A stretch of 64,000 bases of DNA from a virus. Shown piece by piece: positions 37,274-64,000 of the stretch. A program made the translations under genes and the position numbers. The notes under the pieces were generated by a model. The model was given only the letters and a program-made list of their open reading frames with translations. It did no database searches and was not told the DNA's origin. Every line of letters starts with the position of its first letter. The first letter of the stretch is position 1. The stretch lies in IMG/VR virus record IMGVR_UViG_3300027861_000001, positions 85,054 through 149,053 of that record, one strand, 5' to 3'.

Positions 37274-38135
37274 AAATCTTCTCCATCTGTTCTTTTATAT
37301 CAGAAAAAACTAGTTGTAACTCAGTATTAGGAGACCAAACTTTGTTAGCAGGAAGTGTATTTACATACACGAAATGAGAGGCTATCCTCTTGTATGTAAA
37401 AGACATTATTGTTTTTGTCTCATCCATCCAAGTATCATAGTTCTGGCAAAATACCTGCGGACCTGAGTTTCTCCCTATTATAAGCTTACAACTTTTTCCT
37501 AAATAAGCTATTTCATTTAAATCAAACATTCCTTTATTTATTATATCACTAGTTGTGAACAGGTTGTCCTTTTCAAAATCCACTCCCTGCGTAACCACAA
37601 AAGTTATGTCTTTGTACTCATCACACAGCAAAGAAACTACTGCGTTTAAGTCAAAGTTCTCAGCTTGACATGATTGTACTGGACCGTTCGATATAAGAAC
37701 AATTTTTTCCCTGTCTTTTACAAACTTGTCTATAGTATCTGTTTTATAGTATTCAAAGTTAATTTTTGGTATGTAGTCATGCGGTTGATTAGGAAGAGTA
37801 CCCAACCCCAAAACACTCAACATATCACTATGCATCTCATATAATTTCTCTACAACACAACCTATTCCTGGTAAAACATATCTACCATCCCTACCTATCC
37901 AAGTATTTATGTAAATCGTGTCTTTGTCTATAACAAACATAGCCATAGAGTGCATAATCTCTGTCACTTCGATTGATGTTATATTTGGTATATCTTTAAT
38001 TATTTCTTTGTCTTTGCCGTGAGCATAGTAGAAAGAAGACGTTGGGAAGCACTTCATCCAGTACTTAACGAACTCTCTTGATTCATAAATATCTCCAGCC
38101 CCAAAATGATTATAAAAAACAACTTTATTCATCAC
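37266..38135 (-). CDS. glycosyltransferase-like protein (GT-B, GT9-like)
   Basis: 289-aa protein with two Rossmann-like halves: NKVVFYNHFGAGDIYESREFV at the N-terminus (a GD-x-h glycosyltransferase opening) and, in the C-terminal half, DREKIVLISNGP, LCDEYKDITFVVTQG, and KSCKLIIGRNSGPQVFCQN, which matches the donor-site region of heptosyltransferase-like GT-B enzymes. The call is by fold pattern; no exact family can be named. It overlaps both neighbours. Confidence 0.62.
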   Translation of the reverse strand: MMNKVVFYNHFGAGDIYESREFVKYWMKCFPTSSFYYAHGKDKEIIKDIPNITSIEVTEIMHSMAMFVIDKDTIYINTWIGRDGRYVLPGIGCVVEKLYEMHSDMLSVLGLGTLPNQPHDYIPKINFEYYKTDTIDKFVKDREKIVLISNGPVQSCQAENFDLNAVVSLLCDEYKDITFVVTQGVDFEKDNLFTTSDIINKGMFDLNEIAYLGKSCKLIIGRNSGPQVFCQNYDTWMDETKTIMSFTYKRIASHFVYVNTLPANKVWSPNTELQLVFSDIKEQMEKIYA

Positions 38136-58712: not shown

Positions 58713-58743
58713 ATTATAGCACACACGCACTCGTAGTTGTCAA
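58713..58743 (-). promoter_or_regulatory. sigma70-like promoter
   Basis: Minus-strand TTGACA (58743-58738), 19-base spacer, TATAAT (58718-58713). Reads into the 131-aa gene. GGGGC precedes the -35 box, as GGC does at several sister promoters. Confidence 0.75.
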
Positions 58744-58957
58744 GCCCCTTTTTACGATCAATTTTTACTAAATTTTATTAGTTTTATTAAAATATGAAAT
58801 ACGGCATATATTCAATATTTTTTTTATAATTTTTTTCATGCCAAGTAATCTCTAAAATAAGGAAAAAATAAGGATATTGTATAGTATACCTAACCTAAAA
58901 ATGCCCAACTCGAAATATTTAAATTTTTCTTATACTCTCTGAGGGTAACACAACAGC
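58744..58957. other. AT-rich non-coding stretch
   Basis: About 210 bases with long A/T runs (for example near 58820-58850) and no supportable gene on either strand. It lies between the promoter at 58713-58743 and the decamer repeats, and would be a natural DNA-unwinding region if the neighbouring repeats bind an initiator. Confidence 0.5.
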
Positions 58958-59027
58958 GAGACGACGTGAGACGGGTCGAGTTATGTTGAGACGGGGCGGG
59001 GGTACTTGATACGGGTTGAGACGACTT
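58958..59027. repeat. seven-unit 10-bp phased repeat (GAGACGGGTT-like)
   Basis: Units begin at 58958, 58968, 58978, 58988, 58998, 59008 and 59018. Four start GAGACG, one GATACG, one GAGTTA, and one (58998) is degenerate. The period equals one DNA helical turn, so bound proteins would line up on one face. The G-rich block stands out from the AT-rich surroundings. GAGACG occurs again at 60519-60524 (minus) and 60603-60608 (plus). Confidence 0.75.
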
Positions 59028-59042
59028 TTATAATATAATAAA

Positions 59043-59071
59043 TAAACGAGGTGTTGTTAGCACCTCGTTTA
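59043..59071 (-). terminator. strong hairpin terminator
   Basis: Minus-strand TAAACGAGGTG pairs with CACCTCGTTTA (11-bp stem, 7-base loop), followed by TTTATTTATT. It lies just after the 74-aa gene and closes the transcript from the 60.3-kb promoter. Confidence 0.85.
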
Positions 59072-59094
59072 TAATCTAGGAAAGTTAGCACTTG

Positions 59095-59319
59095 TTAATA
59101 TCCGTGATGTAACACTCTGCTATCATCCTGTAAACATGGTTCAAACTTACACGTAAATGGTCTTTCAACTAATAAACACTGGTTACCAGCGTTGTGAAGT
59201 ATGCAAGGTTTACTAGGGTTTATTTTTGCGTTCCATATGTGAATAGCTTTGTTTAGCTTGACTTTGTTCGAAGAAGTTAGCAAGTCTTTAGATTCTATCC
59301 CACTTCCAAAATATAACAT
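59095..59319 (-). CDS. small Cys-rich protein
   Basis: 74-aa protein with four Cys: CILHNAGNQC (residues about 39-48) and CKFEPC (57-62). This resembles a small metal-binding fold but no family is recognised. It follows the 261-aa gene and ends just before the terminator at 59043-59071. Confidence 0.58.
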   Translation of the reverse strand: MLYFGSGIESKDLLTSSNKVKLNKAIHIWNAKINPSKPCILHNAGNQCLLVERPFTCKFEPCLQDDSRVLHHGY

Positions 59320-59378: not shown

Positions 59379-60164
59379 TTACTTCCGTTTACCTTTGGTT
59401 TTTGGTGGTGGTGGTGATTCTGGAAGTGGTATTGTTTCGGGATTGATAAGGATTTTGTATCCAGCTTTACTATTGGTTGGAATTTGTTTTACACCATAGT
59501 TTGAGGTTTGCAGTTCTTTCTCAATAGCAGGAGTGGAGCAAAACAGATTGATTGGTTTTACAAGTCCCTGTATCATTTCGCATCTGACAGAGTCTTGCTC
59601 ACGTGCTAAGGTACTTCCGTCTTTCCAACCAGATTCGTGTCTAACGATCATATTCAGTGGATTGATGTCTTTGTCACGTTGTATCAATCCGTTGTGGTCA
59701 AATGGGTGTTTGGGTACTGAGTAGGGGATATATGCTCCGTCAAGCAAACTGGAATGGTATCCCAATACTTGCATTGCAATACCAAACTCTACCAAAAAAT
59801 CGGTCTTTACTTGTTCTGGTTGCTCATACCAATTTGTCAGCATCGTGGTATTGAGGTACCTTGCAACCGTGTCAGCACTCGTTTTAATGTCCAGTATAAT
59901 TTGCTTGTCTTTCTCACGTTTCCCTTCACTGGTTGCGGTTTGCGTGGTTTGTGCATTTACCACTATTGCACTCGCAATGTCTATTGGAATCTTCATAACA
60001 TCGGATAATTTTTGTGCGTCCGCACCAAACTCCAATGCGTTATTCACTTTCGCAACCGCAATTTTGAGAGGTTCTTCGGTAAACTTTCCCTTATCATCGA
60101 TAGGTGCTATATGGTAGCTTGCACCCTGTTTTGTCCAACCATATATTAATGTATCTGTGGTCAT
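59379..60164 (-). CDS. hypothetical protein, strongly promoted
   Basis: 261-aa protein, not recognised. It has an alpha/beta N-terminus (DTLIYGWTKQGASYHIAPI), a helical middle (AVAKVNNALEFGADAQKLSDVMKI) and a Pro/Lys-rich C-terminus (PLPESPPPPKTKGKRK). Its promoter (60301-60330) matches consensus at both boxes; a leader hairpin (AAACAAACT/AGTTTGTTT) and AGAGGAGTATAAAA precede the ATG. Repeat-rich non-coding stretches lie on both sides. A DNA-binding or origin role is possible but only from context. Confidence 0.7.
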   Translation of the reverse strand: MTTDTLIYGWTKQGASYHIAPIDDKGKFTEEPLKIAVAKVNNALEFGADAQKLSDVMKIPIDIASAIVVNAQTTQTATSEGKREKDKQIILDIKTSADTVARYLNTTMLTNWYEQPEQVKTDFLVEFGIAMQVLGYHSSLLDGAYIPYSVPKHPFDHNGLIQRDKDINPLNMIVRHESGWKDGSTLAREQDSVRCEMIQGLVKPINLFCSTPAIEKELQTSNYGVKQIPTNSKAGYKILINPETIPLPESPPPPKTKGKRK

Positions 60165-60300: not shown

Positions 60301-60330
60301 ATTATACCAGCTAACCTTTCAACTTGTCAA
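60301..60330 (-). promoter_or_regulatory. consensus sigma70-like promoter
   Basis: Minus-strand TTGACA (60330-60325), 18-base spacer, TATAAT (60306-60301). Reads into the 261-aa gene through a leader of about 130 bases. Confidence 0.85.
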
Positions 60331-60555
60331 AATTTTGCTACGTGTGAAAAAATAAAAGATTGGTAAATAAGATAAACGTTCGGTAAAAATGGCAGCGATT
60401 TGGATTTATAATCGTGTTAATTTCAATGTTATGGTAAGTTAAAAATAAACACCCCCAAATTTATAAAAATGCTAACTTTTGAGGAAATTCTCCTGGGAAT
60501 ATAAAAGTCGTATTAAGACGTCTCACACGCAAAATTTTTGCGATCTGTGGTTTAC
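60331..60555. other. non-coding stretch with palindromic GACGTC site
   Basis: No gene on either strand. Contains an AAGACGTCTCAC site (60515-60526) related to TTGAGACGTCTT at 60602-60612, and ACGACTTTTATA (minus, about 60499-60510), which also follows the last decamer unit at 59021-59032. Otherwise AT-rich. Confidence 0.5.
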
Positions 60556-60732
60556 TTTACATAAAGGGTTTAGTGCGACCCAAATACACCTTAAAACGAC
60601 TTGAGACGTCTTTTCCACTCGTGGCAACTTTACATAATAATTTACATAAGAAACTATCTATCTACACATTATGTCAAGTAATAATCACGTTATGTCAAGT
60701 AACATTATGTCAAGTTGGCTTATTTGACATAA
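60556..60732. repeat. iteron-like cluster of TTATGT(C/A)AA boxes
   Basis: Seven copies of a 9-bp box within 177 bases: plus-strand TTATGTCAA at 60669, 60690 and 60705 (each extended to TTATGTCAAGT), and inverted copies TTTACATAA at 60556, 60629, 60641 and TTGACATAA at 60724. The spacing is irregular. The array lies in a gap of more than 500 bases without genes and looks like a binding region for an initiator or repressor. Confidence 0.72.
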
Positions 60733-60886
60733 AATTTTTTTCTCTGTCTTTTTTGCCAGCATTAAAATCGAGAACAGAACTTTATAGCCGACATGTTTTG
60801 CCTGAACGGAACCTGGACTTCTGGCTTTTATGCCAATTGTAAAAAGCCTGAACGGTGAACCTGGTGCTGGCTATTTTGCAAATACA
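60733..60886. repeat. non-coding stretch with imperfect direct repeat
   Basis: GCCTGAACGG followed by ACCTGG occurs twice, at about 60799-60815 and 60846-60862. No supportable gene is seen. It lies between the iteron-like cluster and the 48-aa gene. Confidence 0.45.
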
Positions 60887-63872: not shown

Positions 63873-63892
63873 ATTCACCTCCTTCACTGTAT

Positions 63893-63921
63893 ACTATAAC
63901 AGCTGCCTAACTGGAAGTCAA
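63893..63921 (-). promoter_or_regulatory. extended sigma70-like promoter
   Basis: Minus-strand TTGACT (63921-63916), 17-base spacer, TATAGT (63898-63893), with CCTGGCATCC about 13 bases upstream and AGGCAGCTGT ahead of the -10 box. Confidence 0.78.
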
Positions 63922-63959
63922 GTAGTAGTTGGATGCCAGGTATATCCTCTGGCTAATAT

Positions 63960-63982
63960 GCCTAGAATGATATATTCTAGGC
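63960..63982 (-). terminator. hairpin near right edge
   Basis: GCCTAGAAT and ATTCTAGGC form a 9-bp stem with a 5-base loop. It probably ends a gene lying beyond the window; the remaining bases show no gene. Confidence 0.5.
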
Positions 63983-64000
63983 TGATCTGACATTCACACG

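Follow-up and report, generated by a model that had tools for sequence, protein, structure and literature searches.

Introduction

Bipartite bacterial origins, such as oriC of B. subtilis and H. pylori, have clusters of DnaA boxes that flank dnaA, and in the iteron plasmids F and P1 the ori and inc iterons lie on both sides of repE/repA. In lambda, the iterons lie within the O gene, and the OL/OR type of phage operator consists of tandem sites. Iterons have been reviewed, including those of lambda-type phage origins, where the O protein acts on four of them (PMC10797057). The PLE origin pairs a RepA_N protein with iterons, and the helper phage ICP1 begins early replication at one place (PMC7145576). 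Next to nothing is known of the sites at which large uncultured phages begin replication, or of the circuitry of their early control. The locus described here, in which two groups of sites (elements U and D) flank one gene, has a conserved two-part site and a gene of an undescribed family. It is identifiable by sequence in eight phage genomes or fragments, so that tests of origin and regulator need only one protein and two short pieces of DNA.

With bipartite oriC, this locus shares short sites in two clusters separated by 1-2 kb, a single gene between the clusters and AT-rich DNA beside one of them, but its sites are CTTKACATAA, TAGTGCGA and GAGACG decamers instead of DnaA boxes, and its gene, which lacks an AAA+ domain, is not dnaA. 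As in F and P1, repeats flank a candidate initiator gene and have an AT-rich neighbour; here, however, their spacing is irregular, both orientations occur, no winged-helix Rep domain was found and the gene occurs inverted in one relative. Phage-encoded repeats near replication control are reminiscent of lambda-type origins, except that the sites lie between genes and a homologue of O was not recognised. The PLE origin offers another parallel, repeats in a noncoding region that has a candidate protein of its own, although the repeats differ and no RepA_N is among the Pfam matches listed here. Tandem 10-bp repeats in split blocks are shared with ParR/parC and TubR/tubC (PMC5016525), whose motor gene (ParA was searched for) or RHH gene was not found here. 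Finally, like lambda OL/OR, the sites overlap promoters and form two groups between which looping is possible, but the units are 10 bp long, no repressor was recognised and the conserved sites lie apart from promoters.

The phage and its relatives

The window (the whole 64,000-nucleotide stretch analysed) corresponds to bases 85054-149053 of a 149,053-bp IMG/VR record, G000. Although classed as linear, the record probably represents a complete genome of 148,926 bp, either circular or permuted, since it has a 127-bp direct terminal repeat (window 63874-64000 and record 1-127); G009 and G010, two of its relatives, also terminate in direct repeats. Relatives were found via the terminase (67-76% identity) and the p196 protein (alignment A6), and comprise G004 (148 kb), G007 (67 kb), G008 (71 kb), G009 (139 kb), G010 (134 kb), G011 (153 kb) and a 13-kb contig, G002. 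No GenBank phage matched the relatives, the sole match being a weak terminase one for the window's own protein, and a terminase search in genome contigs gave no host clue. A polymerase, a DnaB-type helicase and a primase are encoded by the phage itself, a point in favour of an origin at this locus; an initiator was not recognised.

Elsewhere in the genome, record positions 1-95 kb hold genes resembling RtcB, polyA polymerase/CCA, ribosomal protein S21, peptide deformylase, ClpP, RecA, NADAR, DruA and Lar restriction alleviation. Within the rightward arm at 25-57 kb (L003, L004), many proteins of 70-120 aa match the same few ORFs of relatives, that is, they form multi-copy families, and several of the small ORFs in this region have zinc-ribbon Pfam matches.

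Coordinates of features at the locus (window positions) and of the leader RNA in relatives
Feature	Position	Strand	Remarks
AT-rich block beside D	58769..58888		second weakest 120-bp duplex of the 149-kb genome
Promoter of 131-aa gene, TTGACA-19-TATAAT	58713..58743	-	position conserved in relatives
GTTGTGTT block of D	58947..58954	-	in register with GTTGTGTTGGATC of relatives (TCGCTnnGTTGTGTT)
Decamer array	58958..59027	+	four GAGACG and one GATACG in one 10-bp phase; this phage's version of D
D core inside array, TACCCCCGCCCCGTCTCAACATAAC on gene strand	58980..59004	-	explains units 3-5; local alignments with G007 and G004, same start base
Promoter A, TTGATA-17-TATAAT (11/12)	59006..59034	+	overlapped by last decamers; rightward, antisense to 74- and 261-aa genes
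Intrinsic terminator	59042..59072	-	12-bp hairpin and T-rich tail; ends leftward 261-aa/74-aa operon
74-aa ORF	59095..59319	-	no match
261-aa gene	59379..60164	-	distant p204-family member; family HMM E = 3e-7, best of all genome ORFs
Perfect promoter, TTGACA-18-TATAAT with TG	60301..60330	-	drives 261-aa gene
Promoter B, GTGAGA-17-TATATT	60498..60526	-	two decamers, register as at promoter A
Cluster U, seven TTKACATAA sites	60555..60735	both	strict CTTKACATAW at 60555, 60628, 60678, 60699, 60714
Composite site CTTTACATAAAGGGTTTAGTGCGA	60555..60578	+	exact to family pattern CTTKACATAW-N6-TAGTGCGA
Third two-decamer site CTTAAAACGACTTGAGACGTCTTTT	60590..60614	+	no -10 box
53-nt leader RNA	L032:9634-9686, L040:17774-17826, L080:8958-9010, L086:4199-4147(-), L097:14467-14519		relatives

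The decamer array as element D

The initial annotation had described the array as seven 10-bp units with a common consensus, of which the phased repeat is real. GAGACG starts at 58958, 58968, 58988 and 59018 and GATACG at 59008, all in one phase, and no period other than 10 yields such a set. At least four in-phase copies of any hexamer were seen in none of 3000 dinucleotide shuffles, in which the array or the intergenic region was shuffled, and four GAGACG within any 70 bp of the genome have a Poisson expectation of 7e-7. Seven units are nonetheless too generous, because units 3 (GAGTTATGTT) and 5 (GGGGGTACTT) misfit the decamer and Tandem Repeats Finder did not include the array among its reported repeats; the lag-10 autocorrelation (z 1.9) is itself too weak to serve as a test of the array. 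The two misfit units match another conserved element instead, namely the ACATAA and C-rich parts of D.

D is found in eight phages (this one and the seven relatives) between the same genes, and in the relatives it is noncoding, downstream of the p204 gene and before a conserved strong promoter. Its order is a C-rich tract, ACATAA (absent in G010), some 35-40 bases, TCGCTnnGTTGTGTT and then an A/T block, with GTTGTGTT lying 39 bases past the C tract in G000 and its counterpart 41-42 bases past it in G007 and G008. Local alignments of the array with G007 and G004 share the same array start base and beat 299/300 and 297/300 shuffles, respectively, and the next promoter past D also aligns (0/300 shuffles as good, for G004 and G008), from which it follows that the array corresponds to D in this phage, its misfit units being D's conserved words. 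A search pattern for D, CTTTACATAA..TGTGTTGGATC, brought up 16 stretches, 12 of which were not D but resembled protein-coding DNA from unrelated phages in which the words coincide by chance.

The AT-rich block beside the array has its parallel in G008 and G011, where the weakest duplex of the genome falls within U-D; as the DNA between genes is AT-rich in any case, this counts as modest support. Close to D in G009, another decamer (GATTTTAAGC) is repeated in tandem immediately upstream of the p204 promoter (L069:6972-7000).

Element U and its dedicated site

U contains clusters of CTTKACATAA on both strands, in this phage as well as in G007 (37335-37600) and G002 (128-436); start positions shift by one base depending on whether the pattern begins with TT or CTT. 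The spacing of these sites is irregular, which, together with their occurrence on both strands, sets them apart from classic direct iterons. Counts of the strict site CTTKACATAW inside and outside U-D are 5 and 1 in G000, 10 and 2 in G007, 4 and 3 in G008, 4 and 2 in G009, 4 and 2 in G011, 2 and 3 in G004, and 0 and 5 in G010. It is thus concentrated in U-D in five of the seven genomes (4-10 copies inside) and at or near chance outside, which argues for a dedicated site and not for the operator of a regulon. The composite pattern CTTKACATAW-N6-TAGTGCGA is exact once in G000 and twice in G009, and occurs four times in G007 with one to three mismatches; with a five-base gap there are no matches, the true gap being six. 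By eye, the GAGACG decamers look as though they could derive from the TAGTGCGA half of this site (compare TTAATACGAC with TTAGTACGTC).

The gene between U and D

The 261-aa gene encodes a distant member of a so far undescribed family, p204 (204-267 aa overall; 204-252 aa for the relatives' genes between U and D), that shares the core GKRExDK ... GWxDGS ... R.Q ... SGY and is present in all relatives near the divergence of two transcription arms. A second family member of 267 aa exists in this phage (L002:6622-7425, E = 2.5e-5), and G009 likewise has two paralogues. The 261-aa protein has no match in viral contigs, phages or genome contigs, nor any in Pfam or PHROG, and neither it nor p204 has a recognisable DNA-binding domain. 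Structure prediction gave mean pLDDT values of 60 for p204 and 35 for p261, with residues 11-66 of p204 confident and all-helical, and Foldseek with the p204 model returned only matches of E > 0.7 and no fold match. Pfam, PHROG and fold searches (the last with low-confidence models) thus reveal no known initiator fold in the adjacent gene, and at this model confidence a hidden domain in p204/p261 is possible. As a binder of the flanking sites, the 261-aa product is the first candidate by position only, and the two paralogues in G000 and G009, like the lack of a recognisable DNA-binding domain or fold match and the low-confidence model, count against the origin/early-control reading set out below.

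G009 provides a natural rearrangement of the locus. Its p204 gene is inverted, U and D have neither moved nor changed orientation, and U, from which the gene has been flipped away, has no adjacent promoter of 11/12 or better. U is therefore not there merely to control the p204 gene.

A candidate origin or early-control locus

The claim that two groups of sites resembling protein-binding sites flank the 261-aa gene has held up, and this architecture is conserved in the relatives. On comparative sequence grounds, the array makes up the D half of a conserved, untranslated locus, U - p261/p204 gene - D, that would act in cis at the DNA level. The best reading, to which we assign a probability of roughly 0.4, is that of a bipartite origin/early-control locus whose sites a phage protein binds. 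A nucleoprotein site of this kind is favoured because the sites are dedicated to the locus, conserved in position, outside the leftward transcript and unaffected by inversion of the gene. A phage protein, with the 261-aa product as first candidate, would fill sites in both U and D, the two complexes may interact across the intervening 1.3-1.5 kb, and the very AT-rich DNA adjoining them would melt. The decamers would represent a lineage-specific extra type of site over promoters A and B, through which binding is probably coupled to transcription nearby.

Measured against an iteron origin, the locus has clustered copies of short sites in one noncoding region and an AT-rich, easily melted block adjoining the repeats; as for helical direct repeats, five decamers are in phase but the conserved CTTKACATAA sites are not so arranged. 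The initial annotation had proposed an origin-type site, which is made credible by the conserved two-group architecture and the exceptionally weak duplex beside the array; the cumulative GC skew that it had put forward as a check does not switch here but at 14.7 kb of the circular record, ~18 kb from the array. The skew follows the direction of transcription anyway, and its unequal arms (~43 versus ~91 kb) fit transcription more than replication. A point in favour of an origin is that in six relatives the switch of skew and transcription lies 1.2-4.5 kb from U-D, the greater distance in G000 being accompanied by extra DNA in between. Counted against an origin are that greater distance and the unequal arms in G000, the lack of strict sites in G010 and the overlap of decamers with promoters, which suits operators. 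That U-gene-D might be, more specifically, a bipartite phage origin with a new class of initiator (p204/p261) and CTTKACATAW-N6-TAGTGCGA as its two-part site, to which a phased decamer here adds a tie between firing and two promoters, is an unlikely scenario.

Alternative readings

Two tandem decamers, ANACGNNTTNANACGNCTTTT, form a shared module with exactly three matches in the 149-kb genome, at 59009-59029 (+, the array end), 60523-60503 (-) and 60594-60614 (+), and its reversed control pattern has none in the whole record. Palindromic AGACGTCT sites are indeed present near 60516-60523 and 60604-60611, as had been noted, and of ACGACTTTTATA, said to follow the repeat at both places, there are two exact copies (59021-59032 (+) and 60511-60500), the second of which is, however, on the minus strand and tied to the 60519-60524 site only. 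Through this exact 12-mer, the first two modules run into TATA and make the -10 regions of promoters A and B, which are sigma70-like and which decamers overlap in identical register to the -10 box, in this phage only; the initial annotation had not noted this overlap with promoters, of which A is close to the consensus. A palindrome, CGCAAAATTTTTGCG, lies at 60527-60544 between promoter B and the composite site.

These features suit a set of purely transcriptional operators, in which a regulator would bind the tandem decamers in the spacers of promoters A and B and at the third site, and the same or another factor would bind CTTKACATAA, so as to switch the 261-aa gene and the neighbouring operon early, perhaps through a U-D loop or antisense transcription from A. 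Since the decamers are peculiar to this phage and sit on promoters, this explanation is nearly as likely as the origin/early-control locus, and it gains from the strong early promoters that adjoin U and D here and in most relatives. What speaks against it is that the conserved U and D sites of relatives are 60-400 bp from promoters with no overlap, that promoters A and B were not seen in relatives (their D has no counterpart of A at 10/12 or better), that U persists in G009 with the gene flipped away and that no HTH_3 or RHH regulator was found. Decamer 8-mers are not enriched in the control regions of relatives, and the exact two-decamer pattern has no match in viral contigs.

An RNA element is much less probable. 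The array or D would then act within RNA as leader, attenuator or terminator, and D does fold into stable hairpins in G004, G008 and G010 (z -3.3 to -5.1), but G000, G002, G007 and G009 show no excess stability, and the RNA reading of D was dropped for want of a shared fold across relatives. There is no Rfam match either, and the array, which sits between the terminator of the 261-aa/74-aa operon (59072-59042 (-)) and the next leftward promoter at 58743, is for that reason outside the leftward transcript.

A centromere-like site for a ParR-, TubR- or ParB-type protein, the partition alternative of the initial annotation, is very improbable. ParR sites are known to contain 10-bp repeats in tandem (PMC5016525) and the sites here are in two blocks, but no ParA-type ATPase (AAA_31) was found in five genomes, with controls working, and neither RHH_1 nor HTH_3, which a centromere-binding protein might carry, was found in this phage and four relatives. 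The negative for a motor gene refers to ParA, the ParM search being uninformative with its controls silent. No other partition gene is among the Pfam matches listed for ~200 ORFs, at the 25 commonest families per scan, and the phage is apparently lytic (inferred from the lack of a visible integrase or repressor) and would have no need of partition.

A functionless chance cluster of GAGACG in a G-rich patch, to which the two misfit units of seven and the weak overall periodicity might point, is scarcely credible in the face of the shuffle test, the restriction of the module to three places and the conserved position of the array.

Other RNAs near the locus

Relatives have a tmRNA gene between D and p196 (L069:8846-9178, L071:8562-8904 and L073:8586-8919); none was found in the window. 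A 53-nt three-way-junction RNA, absent from this window's genome and without an Rfam match in the three genomes scanned, is present in five relatives within the 5' leader of p204, with one copy per genome. Compensatory changes on both sides were seen in 5 of its 15 pairs (five sequences), and it is possibly a new cis-regulatory RNA.
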